Part shown: positions 13,665 to 30,852 of the stretch, one piece after another
How the letters are laid out: each line of letters opens with the position of its first letter
Position numbering within the stretch: the stretch's first letter is position 1
From: Syntrophorhabdaceae bacterium
GTDB lineage: Bacteria; Desulfobacterota; Syntrophorhabdia; Syntrophorhabdales; Syntrophorhabdaceae
Length of the DNA: 53,625 bases
Direction of reading: 5' to 3'
Assembly: GCA_017992765.1 (NCBI GenBank)
Contig: JAGOOA010000002.1
Coordinates: 1-53,625 of the forward strand
Notes under the pieces: generated by a model
What the model was told of the DNA's origin: nothing
Databases searched by the model: none
Seen by the model: only the letters and a program-made list of their open reading frames with translations
Translations under genes and position numbers: made by a program

Positions 13665-14084
13665 ATGGCTGAAGACGAAAAAAACAAAAATCCGGAGATA
13701 GTAGGATTCTGCTGCTCCTATTGTACATTCAAGGCGTCCGAGATGGCGGGAAGCCTGAGGATGAAATATCCGGAAGGGGTCAAGGTTATCGAGGTCCCCT
13801 GTTCAAGCAGGGTTGACCCGGCATTTATTATCAAGGCAATAGTCGAGGGGGCCGACGGTGTTTTCGTTTCCGGCTGTCACCCCGGGGACTGCCACTTCAT
13901 AAAAGGGAATTACTATACCCGCAGAAAGATAGCGGCGTTAAAAGAGATGTTCGATGCATTTTCGATGAAGGATAAGCTCCGGCTTTTCTGGGTAAGCGCA
14001 TCCGAGGCACGGCGTTTTATCGATAAAGTGACGACTTTTTATAACGATATAAAGGAAAAGAACAATGAAAGGGAAAAAGCTTAA
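13665..14084 (+). CDS. mvhD: MvhD/FlpD-like [2Fe-2S] electron-transfer protein
   Basis: 139 residues. The family pattern is complete: FCCSYCTFKASEMAGSLR near the N-terminus, VIEVPCSSRVDPAFIIKAI in the middle, and DGVFVSGCHPGDCHFIKGNYYTRRKI. In methanogens and in Flx-Hdr or Mvh-Hdr complexes, MvhD passes electrons from a hydrogenase or dehydrogenase module to HdrA. A strong TTTGGAGG ribosome-binding site precedes ATG 13665. The 3' end overlaps the next gene by 20 nt. All key positions are Cys, not selenocysteine. Confidence 0.92.
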   Translation: MAEDEKNKNPEIVGFCCSYCTFKASEMAGSLRMKYPEGVKVIEVPCSSRVDPAFIIKAIVEGADGVFVSGCHPGDCHFIKGNYYTRRKIAALKEMFDAFSMKDKLRLFWVSASEARRFIDKVTTFYNDIKEKNNEREKA

Positions 14085-15075
14085 GAGCGGAGAGATCGAA
14101 AATGCTCTCAACGAGTTCCTGAAGGACGAACAGCACCTGGTCCTTGGATTTAAAAAGGGTGAAAGCGGCGTCAGCCACCAGATATTCAAGGGCGGCCTCG
14201 ATCATTATTCCCTTGTAAACCCCGTATTCGGAGCAAATGCGGCCCTATACCTTCGCCGGCTGTTTTCCAAAGGATTGAAGGTCATGCTCATGCTAAGGCC
14301 CTGTGAGATACGGGCCTATGTAGAGCTCGTCAAACTGACCCAGGTAGAGCGGGAAGACGTGATTGCCGTGTCCATTGATTGTTTTGGTACGGTGTCCTCA
14401 AAAGAAAAGAAGGACGATGTGCCTGTTGAGGCCGGCAAACTGACCGACTATTTCAAGGATAAGGATTCCATGAGGTGGGCCTGCAGCGTGTGCCGCGAAA
14501 GAAGAGGGGTTGTAGGGGACGCAGGGGTAAGGATCGATAAGTCCGGCAATCTCTGGATGATCCCCTACACGGAAAAAGGGGAAGACCTGGTTTCCGGCAT
14601 GGAAGGGGAATTCGAAGAGGTTCCCGCAGAGATGCTCATCCCGGAGAGCGCGAAGACGGACAAGTTCCAGGTAGACATGGAAACTTTCAATAAAGACTTT
14701 GAAAAGTGCATCATGTGCATGAACTGCAGGGATATGTGCCCCGTCTGCTACTGCATCGACTGTGTCTTTAACGGGGACGAATATCTTCCCAAGGGCGACG
14801 CCCTGCTCAACAAGATCTTCAGGACCGGTTCGACAACGATGCCGCGGGGGAAAGACCTTTTCCATCTCATAAGGATGTACCATGTGTCCCAGACCTGTGT
14901 TGGCTGCGGAGCCTGCGAGGAGGCCTGCCCTCAGGGGATCCCCCTGACAAAGTATTTCAAGGGCGTATCCGAGAGGCTCCAGGGCGTATTCTCTTACATG
15001 TCGGGACGAAATTTTGACGAGCCTATCCCCTATGTTACTTTTCTCGAGGATGAATTGAAAGAAGCAATGGATTAA
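14065..15075 (+). CDS. FrhB/FdhB-like flavin and iron-sulfur protein (coenzyme F420 hydrogenase/dehydrogenase beta-subunit family)
   Basis: 336 residues. Features typical of the family are GLKVMLMLRPCEIRAYVELVKL (about residues 72-93), ISIDCFG-like VSIDCFGTVS, WACSVCRERRG, and two cluster motifs near the C-terminus (CIMCMNCRDMCPVCYC; CVGCGACEEACPQG). Known members bind FAD and exchange electrons with F420, NAD(P) or formate dehydrogenase. No FrhA, FdhA or hydrogenase large subunit is nearby, so here it may be a soluble docking or NAD(P)-linked subunit of an Hdr complex. That role is inference. It overlaps mvhD by 20 nt. Confidence 0.85.
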   Translation: MKGKKLKSGEIENALNEFLKDEQHLVLGFKKGESGVSHQIFKGGLDHYSLVNPVFGANAALYLRRLFSKGLKVMLMLRPCEIRAYVELVKLTQVEREDVIAVSIDCFGTVSSKEKKDDVPVEAGKLTDYFKDKDSMRWACSVCRERRGVVGDAGVRIDKSGNLWMIPYTEKGEDLVSGMEGEFEEVPAEMLIPESAKTDKFQVDMETFNKDFEKCIMCMNCRDMCPVCYCIDCVFNGDEYLPKGDALLNKIFRTGSTTMPRGKDLFHLIRMYHVSQTCVGCGACEEACPQGIPLTKYFKGVSERLQGVFSYMSGRNFDEPIPYVTFLEDELKEAMD

Positions 15076-15117
15076 AAAGATATTAAATGCGCAATAAAAC
15101 AAAACAGGCAAGCGTAG

Positions 15118-15636
15118 ATGATAAAAGAAAAAGATCATGAAATAGTTTTCAAGTACACCGGGTACCGGCGGGAGGATTTTTCTGTCTGCCTGGGATGCAA
15201 GATCTGCGCATCCGTGTGCACCGTCAACGACCTCGCACAGAACGTCAACCCGCAGGAGCTCCTTATGAAGCTCTTTGTTGGAGAGAAGATCGAAGACGAT
15301 CATCCCCTCGTCCGCTACTGTACGAGCTGTTATCGCTGCACCACGGCCTGTCCCTGGCAGATAAGGATACCCGAGGTGGTCCGGGCCGTAAAGGAATCGC
15401 TTGGCATGGAATCCCGCTTTGAAAAGGCATTCAAGAGATCCCTTGATATCTGGGGCCGGGTATATGAGCCCTTTGTGGTGGCCATGACGGCGCTCGACCT
15501 CCTGAAGGGCGGCTACATAAAGTATATGCCGAAATGGATGGGGTATGCGGGCTTCCACCTCCCCCATAAGGTAAAAAGACTAAAACCTACGAACGCTTCA
15601 AAGGGATCGAACCCTTCCGAAGAAGGCAGGTCATGA
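15118..15636 (+). CDS. hdrC: Heterodisulfide reductase subunit C-like ferredoxin
   Basis: 172 residues with two 4Fe-4S motifs, CLGCKICASVC (about residue 27) and CTSCYRCTTACPWQIRIPEVVRAVK (about residue 69), separated as in HdrC. The NVNPQELLMKLFVG linker is also typical. Its end overlaps the next gene by 4 nt, the arrangement usual for hdrC-hdrB. It relays electrons from HdrA to the HdrB active site. Confidence 0.92.
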   Translation: MIKEKDHEIVFKYTGYRREDFSVCLGCKICASVCTVNDLAQNVNPQELLMKLFVGEKIEDDHPLVRYCTSCYRCTTACPWQIRIPEVVRAVKESLGMESRFEKAFKRSLDIWGRVYEPFVVAMTALDLLKGGYIKYMPKWMGYAGFHLPHKVKRLKPTNASKGSNPSEEGRS

Positions 15637-16316
15637 TGGAATACGGATATTATCCGGGGTGCTCTCTCACCGGCTCAGCGAAAAGGCTCGATCAGGGCGT
15701 CAGGCAGCTTTGTAAAAAGCTCGGCCATATCCTCAAGGAGATACCTGACTGGAACTGCTGCGGTGCCCTGGAATACGGAGACAGGAATGAGCTGGTGAGC
15801 ATCTCAGGGGAAAACCTGGAAAAGGCGCAGGGCATGTGCAAAGAAATCGTTGTCCCCTGCCCTGCCTGCTATAAGAACCTGAAAGATGCCGACCCCGACA
15901 GGTCGTTCAATATCCTGAGCCCCCTGGAGCTCCTGAGCGTTGAGGATCTATTAAAAATAGAACAAAAGAGGGATCTCAAGGGCCAGGTATTCTTTCCCTA
16001 TTACGGCTGCCTGCTCATGAGGCCTGAAGGGAACTCCATTAAAAACAGGAACATCATGGAAGATGTGATAAGCGCCTTCGGCGGCGAAGTTAACGGCGAG
16101 AACATGAAGGACCGGTGCTGCGGAGGCAACCAGCTCTTCCTTAACAAATGGGCCACCGAGAAGCTTTCAACGCTTATCCTCGGCAAGACCAAAGGGACTG
16201 TTGTTGTCTTCTGCCCCTTCTGCCACATGGCAATGAAGACCTTTGCCGAGGGCAGAAAGGTTATTTATCTAACGGACCTTCTGCTCTATGTCATGGGGGA
16301 GAATAATTCCTTATGA
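15633..16316 (+). CDS. hdrB: Heterodisulfide reductase subunit B-like protein (short)
   Basis: 227 residues, shorter than the roughly 290 usual for HdrB, but both CCG modules are present: YYPGCSLTGSAK, DWNCCGALEYG and PCPACYKNL in the first; YYGCLLMRP, DRCCGGNQLF and FCPFCHMAMK in the second. These cysteines form the noncubane 4Fe-4S clusters that cleave disulfides in HdrB. In a bacterium without coenzymes M and B the true substrate is unknown. The start may be ATG 15633 or 15636. The stop overlaps the duplicated start codon of the following element (ATGA at 16313-16316). Confidence 0.92.
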   Translation: MMEYGYYPGCSLTGSAKRLDQGVRQLCKKLGHILKEIPDWNCCGALEYGDRNELVSISGENLEKAQGMCKEIVVPCPACYKNLKDADPDRSFNILSPLELLSVEDLLKIEQKRDLKGQVFFPYYGCLLMRPEGNSIKNRNIMEDVISAFGGEVNGENMKDRCCGGNQLFLNKWATEKLSTLILGKTKGTVVVFCPFCHMAMKTFAEGRKVIYLTDLLLYVMGENNSL

Positions 16317-16375
16317 ATATACTGATAATAGGCGGAGGAATAAGCGGAGTTATGGGAGAGCGTAAAGGTATATGA
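16313..16375 (+). repeat. Duplicated 5' end of hdrA 3 forming a 20-codon mini-ORF
   Basis: The first 29 bases of hdrA 3 (from ATG 16372) occur identically from ATG 16313, 59 nt upstream. The upstream copy overlaps the hdrB stop (ATGA), encodes MNILIIGGGISG plus eight more residues, and ends at a TGA overlapping the true hdrA start (ATGA, 16372-16375). Because 59 is not a multiple of 3, the copy is out of frame. The result is a stop-start chain from hdrB to mini-ORF to hdrA. Confidence 0.9.
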
Positions 16376-18126
16376 ATATACTGATAATAGGCGGAGGAAT
16401 TAGTGGCATATCGGCGGCCAAGGTCGCCCTTGGGGAAAAACAGGATGTAACGATCCTCGAATCGACCCCTGAGCCGGGTGGGCTCATGGCCCGTATAGCC
16501 AACTGCCGGGTAGGGTTCAAGACCTTTTTCGACGAGATCCGGGACAACAAGCGCCTGACCGTGATCAGCGACGCAAAGATAGTCAAGGCGGCGAAAGAGG
16601 GTAATGGATTTGCTATAACTCTTAGCGACGGACGGACGTTGACAGCCGATAAGGTGATCATCGCAGCCGGCCTTGCTCCCTATGACCCCGTCGAGTACAA
16701 AGGGAAGAGGGTCCTCACAAGCCTTGAGTATGACGCCGTCATCGATCAGCGGCAGGGCGAGCTGCCTGCCGATTTCAACAAGGTCGGCTTTTTTCTTTGC
16801 GTCGGCTCCCGTTCGAAAGATTACCCCCTCTGTTCGTCGGTCTGCTGCTCTTATACGCTCCGTGAGGTGAAATGGACGCTCCAGAGGGCGAAGCCGGAGA
16901 TCGCCGTCTTTTACAACGACCTCAGGTTCTTTGGCCAGGAATTCTATATGGAGAAGGCCTTCAGGAACACGGGGGTGAGGTTTGTGAGGGCAAACTCCCG
17001 GTACTTCGAAGAGGATGAGGAGGGCGTCACGGTCCGGTATTATACAGGCGGGCAGTTGAAGGAGGAGCGCTTCAATTATGCCGTCCTTGCCATCGGGCTT
17101 CGTCCCAGCCCGCAGCTCGCAGAGTTGAGCCGCATGTTCGGCTTCTCGTTGAACGAATACGGATTCGTCAATGAAAAGCTGCCCCTTCAAACTGATGTGG
17201 AAGGCGTTTATGTCTCCGGCGGCGCGCTTGAGCCCATGAACATCAAGGATTCTATCCTCACGGGTTTTGGCGCGGGCTATATCGCGGTAAAAGGGCCGGA
17301 GGTCCTCGCAAAGACCGAAGTGCGCGACGAGCGGCTTTATCGTGAAGACGAGCCTGAATTTGTTCTTTCCGATGGAAACGCCACCACCTGCCTCTTCTAT
17401 CTGGGAACGGAAGATCCGGGCAACGGCATATTCTATGAATTCGTTTCCTCAAAGTTCATTGAGGCGGCGAGGAGTTTGAAAAAGGCAGGGAAGGCTGTAT
17501 ATGTGCTGACGAGAAACATGGTCACCCCTTCCTACGGCGAGGTCGCCTATGAGGAGGCAAGGCGGGAAGGAGTTGTGTTCGTCCATCTCGAGGAAGACGA
17601 AACCGCCGCCTTCGACGGGAACCAGGTTCGCATCGCAAGGGATGGGCGCGAACTTACCTTCAACGCGGATAAGGTTATCCGTTTCGACGATTATGCCAAA
17701 CTTTTTAAGGACAGGGAGTACCTCTCCCTCTACAGGTCTGAACCGCAGATCAGATGGTCCCCAACTAAATGGGGCAGAAAGAAATACCACATAGGGTTCA
17801 TCAGGCACCCGAGGGAAAAAAGATGGGAGGAGAGGGAGGTTCTCGGCGCCCTTGGAGAGATCCTCCTCGATAAGGAAGAGGAACGTATCCTCCCTGAAGT
17901 GAACGAGGAGCGCTGCAGCGGCTGCGGCTCCTGCAAGGATGCCTGCCCGCATAGCGCCATCGAGATTCTGATCCGGGAAAAACAGCTTGCCATCTTCGGG
18001 CCCGTGGCGTCATCAGGGGTTCCTATCGCCCATGTAAAAGAAGATACCTGCGTGGGATGCGGATTGTGCGCCTCGACCTGCCCGTCGGATGTGATCGCAT
18101 TCTCCGAGAAGCCGCCGGCGCCGTGA
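16372..18126 (+). CDS. HdrA-like flavoprotein 3 with extra central domain and C-terminal 2x4Fe4S
   Basis: 584 residues. It starts directly with the FAD motif LIIGGGISGISAAK, has FLCVGSRSKDYPLCSSVCCSYTLREVKW, AIGLRPSPQLAE and DVEGVYVSGGALEPMNIKDS, and so corresponds to the FAD core of HdrA without the N-terminal domain and without the ferredoxin insert. Residues about 320-500 form an additional domain I do not recognise. The C-terminus has two 4Fe-4S motifs (CSGCGSCKDACP, CVGCGLCASTCP). It follows hdrCB as the third HdrA paralogue of the cluster. It is probably a docking or relay subunit; whether it binds a bifurcating flavin cannot be judged. Confidence 0.85.
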   Translation: MNILIIGGGISGISAAKVALGEKQDVTILESTPEPGGLMARIANCRVGFKTFFDEIRDNKRLTVISDAKIVKAAKEGNGFAITLSDGRTLTADKVIIAAGLAPYDPVEYKGKRVLTSLEYDAVIDQRQGELPADFNKVGFFLCVGSRSKDYPLCSSVCCSYTLREVKWTLQRAKPEIAVFYNDLRFFGQEFYMEKAFRNTGVRFVRANSRYFEEDEEGVTVRYYTGGQLKEERFNYAVLAIGLRPSPQLAELSRMFGFSLNEYGFVNEKLPLQTDVEGVYVSGGALEPMNIKDSILTGFGAGYIAVKGPEVLAKTEVRDERLYREDEPEFVLSDGNATTCLFYLGTEDPGNGIFYEFVSSKFIEAARSLKKAGKAVYVLTRNMVTPSYGEVAYEEARREGVVFVHLEEDETAAFDGNQVRIARDGRELTFNADKVIRFDDYAKLFKDREYLSLYRSEPQIRWSPTKWGRKKYHIGFIRHPREKRWEEREVLGALGEILLDKEEERILPEVNEERCSGCGSCKDACPHSAIEILIREKQLAIFGPVASSGVPIAHVKEDTCVGCGLCASTCPSDVIAFSEKPPAP

Positions 18127-18281: not shown

Positions 18282-18605
18282 TCAGCAGCTGCAGGTGCCG
18301 CTCCCGCAGCCGCCTCCTGCCTTGTTTGAAAGTTCCGATTTTATCATAAAGCCTGCGCCCATGGCAGACTTTACAAAATCAATGCTGATCGGTTTTACTT
18401 CATCAAAAAGCCCTTTATTCATGATAAAGGTAACGCCCTTTTCGTTAAAGATCTGGTCATCGTCATGCGGCTCATCCAGAGCCATGCCCAATGAGGGCCC
18501 TGATCACCCGCCCTCTGTCATCATAACGCGCACGGATTGCGGGCCGTCCTTGTCTGCAAGGAATTGTTTGATCATCTCGCTTGCCATGTCAGATATCTCG
18601 AACAT
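18282..18605 (-). CDS. HesB/IscA-like selenoprotein (in-frame UGA read as selenocysteine)
   Basis: Read from ATG 18605 (AAAGGAG 8 nt upstream) the frame gives 107 residues with one internal TGA at codon 34 (18504-18506), in the context MMTEGG-U-SGPSLGMALDEP. The sequence continues collinearly through DDDQIFNEKGVTFIMNKGLF to a C-terminal GGGCGSGTCSC. This matches the known HesB-like selenoprotein family: the A-type Fe-S carrier fold, with Sec where IscA/HesB has its first conserved Cys, plus a Cys-rich tail. A hairpin sits directly 3' of the UGA. A gene caller using UGA as stop would truncate or miss it. The host must encode SelA/B/C/D elsewhere. It probably functions in Fe-S or selenium handling; its exact job is not established. 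Confidence 0.88.
18477..18503 (-). promoter_or_regulatory. Candidate bacterial SECIS hairpin
   Basis: One base after the UGA (18504-18506), CAGGGCC (18502-18496) pairs with GGCTCTG (18483-18477) in seven pairs including one G-U, around a 12-nt loop that contains GGGC. Bacterial SECIS elements are stem-loops placed immediately downstream of the UGA and recognised by SelB, so position and size fit. The pairing is seen; the function is inferred. Confidence 0.65.
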
Positions 18606-18754
18606 ATTACACTCCTTTTCTTTAATCTGTTATCGCTCATTGCGCAATAACTGCATTTAATAGCATATGCATTTCTCTGCCAATGTCAACCCCTTGCGCA
18701 GGCCATGGTCTTGCGGCATTGTTTTTATTGAATAAATGTCCTATAGTATCTCCC

Positions 18755-25170: not shown

Positions 25171-25562
25171 AATCCTAAATCCGAATATCTAAGCACTAAA
25201 CAATATCGAAATTCAAATATCAAATGTTCAAAACGAATATATTTTTTTACGTTTTGAATTTTGAACATTGGGACATTTGAATTTACGTAGAAAATAGTCT
25301 ATCCCAGACATATAATGAGAGCATGGCATCGGGATATCCCGGAGCAAACCGTCGTGAGGCAAGGAAGCTTGGTCTTTTGCGAAGCAAAAGTTCCGAAGCC
25401 GAACGCGAGCGAATGAAGCCGCAGGAGCGGAATGAGCGTGTTTGCGTGGGATGTCCCGACGACATGCTCATCCTTGATACATCATTTTTATTCTTCGAGG
25501 GTGTCGCGCAAAGCGCGACATGGGTAATTGTTTAGGATTTAGATATTCGAGTTTAGTGTTTA
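25171..25562. repeat. Composite intergenic repeat: R1 arms enclosing a nested palindromic element
   Basis: The whole 416-nt gap is repeats. The left R1 part (25171-25234: aatcctaaat...caaatgttcaaaac) is mirrored by a right part (25526-25562: aattgtttaggatttagatattcg...). Between them lie a smaller palindrome (caaatgttcaaaacg / cgttttgaattttgaacattg, about 25221-25275), element copy B (25319-25469), and a perfect 8-bp hairpin TGTCGCGC-aaa-GCGCGACA (25502-25520). No credible gene is seen. Confidence 0.8.
25319..25469. repeat. Nested palindromic element, copy B
   Basis: Arms of 22 nt (25319-25340 and 25448-25469; gagcatg..tcggga.atccc) are inverted repeats with 19 of 22 positions complementary. 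They enclose a 103-nt core, 25344-25446. The core itself starts GCAAAC and ends GTTTGC, and contains CTTTTGC-gaa-GCAAAAG and CCGC-agga-GCGG hairpins. It is 98/103 identical by eye to copy C at 46.3 kb, whose arms are unrelated. Confidence 0.85.
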
Positions 25563-30746: not shown

Positions 30747-30852
30747 CAAGCTTGATGGGTTCGGAGACGTATCGTGTGCCTCCGAAGGTTTTTTTAAAAG
30801 GATGGTCGGGCCGCCACCTGGAGATAATTCAGGTGGCGGCCTTTATTTTTTA
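30747..30852 (+). ncRNA. Candidate small RNA with two consecutive terminator-like hairpins
   Basis: Between a consensus promoter and a strong terminator lies about 105 nt without a credible ORF. Hairpin 1 pairs TTCGGAG (30760-30766) with CTCCGAA (30780-30786) and is followed by seven T (30789-30795). Hairpin 2 is a perfect 12-bp stem, GGCCGCCACCTG (30809-30820) with 30830-30841, followed by a T-rich tail. It could be a small regulatory RNA or an attenuated leader of the pentapeptide gene 115 nt downstream. It matches no RNA family I recognise. Confidence 0.5.

Follow-up and report, generated by a model that had tools for sequence, protein, structure and literature searches.

HesB-like selenoproteins were already catalogued in Deltaproteobacteria in 2006 (PMC1794560), and the published model of the bacterial SECIS element specifies a stem of at least 4 bp, a loop of 3-9 nt with a G in the first two loop positions, a distance of 16-37 nt from the UGA and an MFE of at most -7.5 (PMC13188914). 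Two NCBIfam profiles describe proteins of this kind, NF038090 (IscA_HesB_Se) and TIGR01911 (HesB_rel_seleno), with curated cut-offs of 85 and 66.35 bits, respectively. The window analysed here is a stretch of 53,625 nucleotides from a Syntrophorhabdaceae bacterium whose genome assembly comprises 2.42 Mb in 71 contigs and is 95% complete. It contains what we hold, with very high confidence, to be a functional gene whose A-type (IscA/HesB-like) product contains selenocysteine, UGA34 being read as Sec. This reading is supported by the family assignment, by some 50 homologues that carry the same TGA, by purifying selection on both of its sides, by a covarying SECIS hairpin and by the presence of tRNA-Sec, SelB and SelD in the genome.

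Gene, reading frame and family

The gene lies on the minus strand, starting with the ATG at 18605 and ending with a TGA stop at 18284-18282, and is interrupted by a single in-frame TGA (18506-18504) at residue 34 (Table 1). The product begins MFEISDMASEMIKQFLADKDGPQSVRVMMTEGG-U-SGPSLGMALDEP and ends GGGCGSGTCSC-stop, its complete translation from 18605 to 18282 being MFEISDMASEMIKQFLADKDGPQSVRVMMTEGG-U-SGPSLGMALDEPHDDDQIFNEKGVTFIMNKGLFDEVKPISIDFVKSAMGAGFMIKSELSNKAGGGCGSGTCSC-stop; the plus-strand frame of the same interval was rejected, as three TGAs interrupt it. The coordinates given in the earlier note are correct, as is its description of a good start with a ribosome-binding site, an AAGGAG being found upstream of the ATG. 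Also borne out is the proposal that two open segments join in frame through the TGA: the NF038090 match (117.3 bits, E 3e-34 by NCBIfam hmmscan) runs unbroken across the UGA over nearly the full length, and the TGA occupies one and the same codon in homologues, so that the frame through it is not a chance one. The earlier note had also assigned the gene to the HesB-like selenoproteins with TIGR01911 as the model; the protein is indeed a HesB/IscA-like selenoprotein by NF038090, but TIGR01911 stays below its cut-off, at 45 bits in hmmscan and 43.2 bits in a second search. The warning that standard gene calling would lose the gene is only partly true, since NCBI maintains a model specific to this subfamily of selenoproteins. 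Relatives of known structure are of the IscA type, namely Aquifex AQ_1857 (1nwb) and E. coli IscA (1s98, 1r94), with E values of 1e-8 to 1e-9.

Table 1. Features in and around the selenoprotein gene (positions in the window).
Feature	Position	Strand	Basis
HesB/IscA-like selenoprotein gene, 107 aa + stop	18282..18605	-	NF038090, 117.3 bits; 110 bits in the genome search, one internal TGA
In-frame UGA, predicted selenocysteine, residue 34, GG-U-SGPS	18504..18506	-	aligned to the first conserved Cys of 1nwb and E. coli IscA (1s98)
Probable bacterial SECIS hairpin GGCUC-UGGAU-GAGCC	18469..18483	-	covariation; apical loop 25 nt after the UGA; -9.1 kcal/mol
7-bp hairpin of the earlier note, CAGGGCC/GGCUCUG (18502-18496 with 18483-18477)	18477..18502	-	overlaps the 5' arm of the SECIS hairpin
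Shine-Dalgarno-like AAGGAG region, upstream of ATG 18605	18610..18622	-	read directly from the sequence
Sigma-70-like promoter TTGACA-16-TATGCT (10/12)	18662..18689	-	consensus match only
Hdr/MvhD-like electron-transfer cluster	13665-18126	+	
DUF2071 gene	from 18683 or 18758	+	
Dispersed repeat, window copy	25177-25269		query L063:11237-11423
nhaA-I riboswitch candidate	30757-30818	+	sole Rfam match above gathering score in the window

The gene is apparently monocistronic. Its neighbours on the two sides, the Hdr-like cluster and the DUF2071 gene, are on the plus strand. The former, which directly adjoins the selenoprotein gene, encodes MvhD/FlpD, a 4Fe-4S protein and HdrC-, HdrB- and HdrA-like proteins. 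Members of such electron-transfer families often contain Sec; the reading frames of this cluster contain no in-frame TGA.

Conservation of the UGA codon and of a downstream hairpin

Matches to NF038090 were found in 48 of 60 related genomes, most of them with exactly one TGA, and about 50 homologues from these genomes, spread over many genera, share the position of the TGA codon. The region after the UGA was extracted from 43 distinct TGA-bearing sequences; several more had been dropped by a motif filter and, when inspected separately, proved to carry the TGA at the same codon. A contig scan for close relatives returned four, each from metagenome-assembled Deltaproteobacteria. In comparisons with the congeners G001 and G004, dN/dS was 0.06 and 0.11 before the UGA and 0.05 and 0.13 after it, respectively (the near-identical congener G002 offers too few changes for a judgement). 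Since these values are low on both sides, the sequence after the UGA is under the same purifying selection as that before it, and the gene is not decaying.

These observations bear directly on the reading of the gene as a pseudogene, in which a normal Cys or Trp codon has mutated to TGA. SelA is not found in the assembly, and in paralogues from related genomes this codon is TGG (Trp) or TAC (Tyr), a Trp codon being one mutation away from TGA, all of which could be taken in its favour. Against it stand the same TGA in about 50 homologues, the equally low dN/dS beyond the codon, the covarying hairpin downstream and a genome that encodes tRNA-Sec, SelB and SelD. The conservation across genera in practice refutes a pseudogene, which we consider highly improbable; TGA conservation and low dN/dS likewise contradict the degenerate stop in a decaying gene that the earlier note had named as a finding that would speak against a selenoprotein. 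A programmed stop yielding a 33-residue peptide, with the downstream part made by reinitiation, has nothing but the presence of the stop to recommend it and is very improbable, given that the first in-frame start after the UGA is a TTG (18491) inside the conserved motif and lacking an obvious ribosome-binding site, that the family profile is uninterrupted across the UGA and that the related Cys proteins are single chains.

The paralogues themselves are second NF038090-like copies in related genomes, with TGG at the Sec codon in L088, L093, L094, L095, L096 and L098 and TAC in L089, L090 and L091. Most of these matches stop near profile position 92 of 101, without the C-terminal Cys tail, and in the paralogues without a TGA the SECIS stem is mostly broken. 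Sec has apparently been replaced in these copies by a non-cysteine residue, possibly with a new function.

Downstream of the UGA, the hairpin GGCUC-UGGAU-GAGCC ranks first among 474 candidate 5-bp stems, both by pairing and by covariation. Its stem occurs in the 43 distinct sequences as GGCUC/GAGCC (22), GGCCC/GGGCC (12), GGUUC/GAACC (2) and GAUUC/GAAUC (2), together with G-U variants; 42 of them have a UGGAU or UGGAC loop. As many as 98% of the pair cells are paired, a value that falls to 20-47% when the partner arm is shifted by 1-3 columns, and the double-change covariation of 0.261 compares with a maximum of 0.100 in column shuffles, which ignore kinship. Compensatory changes are seen in three of the five pairs (numbered with the T of TGA at position 0): 26-34, U-A to C-G; 25-35, C-G to U-A; and 24-36, G-C to A-U. 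In part these switches involve amino-acid changes, namely Glu to Gly paired with a silent change in an Ala codon, and Ala to Val/Ile paired with one in a Glu codon; as its bases are also coding, constraint on the protein could account for some of the hairpin's conservation. With a loop of 5 nt, a stem of 5 bp and a G at loop position 2, and with the spacing and energy given in Table 1, the hairpin satisfies the published SECIS model.

This element, rather than the 7-bp hairpin described in the earlier note, is very likely the functional one. The pairing of the 7-bp hairpin does begin one base after the UGA, as had been claimed, but it is not conserved, its 83% pairing being the same as the 83% in column shuffles and its covariation not in excess; it was rejected as a SECIS element and is probably not functional. 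A GCCC/GGGC hairpin was also tested as a SECIS element and rejected.

Selenocysteine machinery and the missing selA

The earlier note had suggested a search for selA, selB, selC and selD, with the absence of all Sec machinery counting against a selenoprotein. Such an absence is not what was found: the genome encodes SelB (363 bits), a tRNA-Sec (anticodon TCA) located at the extreme end of contig C29, and two SelD proteins (389 and 372 bits), each with an in-frame UGA of its own (GAG-U-ASK). The two selD loci are G000:C63:41637-42563 (L010) and G000:C70:179680-180594 (L011). Only selA was not found in the assembly. The same genes bear on a genome-wide reassignment of UGA (e.g. to Trp) or near-cognate read-through in place of Sec insertion, a reading to which the Trp (TGG) of some paralogues lends a little colour but which has a negligible probability, since the window gene itself ends in TGA, the tRNA-Sec is a dedicated one and a covarying SECIS lies at the site.

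SelA was also not found in the congener G002, although the five other congeners (five of six besides the window's genome) have it, as do 55 of the 60 relatives in total. In these five congeners selA lies in a syntenic block, MFS transporter - selA - rluD - YfiH-like - histidine kinase - smpB - tmRNA, in which all names except selA and tmRNA are a reading of the translations. In G002, contig ends flank the expected selA, contig C179 beginning inside the MFS gene and C172 ending inside rluD. From the window's genome the whole selA-smpB-tmRNA block is absent, the tmRNA search giving only tRNA-sized sub-threshold matches. Nearly all bacteria have tmRNA and SmpB. Because these genes are missing together with selA, the absence is likely an assembly gap, in which selA would be located, and a true loss of selA was judged unlikely on the same grounds. 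Also present in this genome and its relatives is a repeat some 100-180 bp long, dispersed over dozens of sites in the genus with about 70-86% identity and adjoining smpB in L063, which may contribute to contig breaks. The genome illustrates how a gap in an assembly can make selA seem absent.

Proposed role and comparison with known systems

In the mechanism we propose, SelB bound to the downstream SECIS would deliver Sec-tRNA(Sec) at UGA34, and this read-through would yield the 107-residue protein. IscA binds iron or an Fe-S cluster through three cysteines; Sec34 would stand in for the first of these, and the C-terminal tail cysteines C100, C105 and C107 would provide the other ligands. Cluster binding through three Cys/Sec ligands is predicted from positions conserved by alignment only, and the protein may serve as an Fe-S carrier or as a metal/redox ligand. 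IscU/NifU scaffolds are present in the genome, and searches with TIGR01911, NF038090 and PF01521 found no other A-type protein in it, although the zero from PF01521 is weak evidence because in whole-genome mode this profile misses even the window gene. That the Sec protein is the genome's only recognisable A-type (IscA/ErpA/SufA-like) carrier is doubtful; if true, some Fe-S cluster delivery would be directly selenium-dependent.

The window gene is almost certainly a genuine selenoprotein gene of an already known family, and as such a well-supported addition to a group of unproven function that leaves existing concepts unchanged, while providing a covariation-supported SECIS for the NF038090 subfamily. 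From IscA_HesB_Se it shows no significant difference, sharing with it a score above the cut-off, Sec at the first IscA cysteine, the Cys-rich C-terminal tail and the UxGP motif. With TIGR01911 and the HesB-like selenoproteins of Zhang et al. (2006; PMC1794560) it has the UxGP motif and the fold family in common, but TIGR01911 models a different, related subfamily. Compared with E. coli IscA and AQ_1857, which by sequence belong to the same A-type carrier family and with whose first conserved Cys U34 aligns, the window protein carries Sec for Cys and has a longer tail, CxxxxCxC, that holds its C-terminal cysteines.
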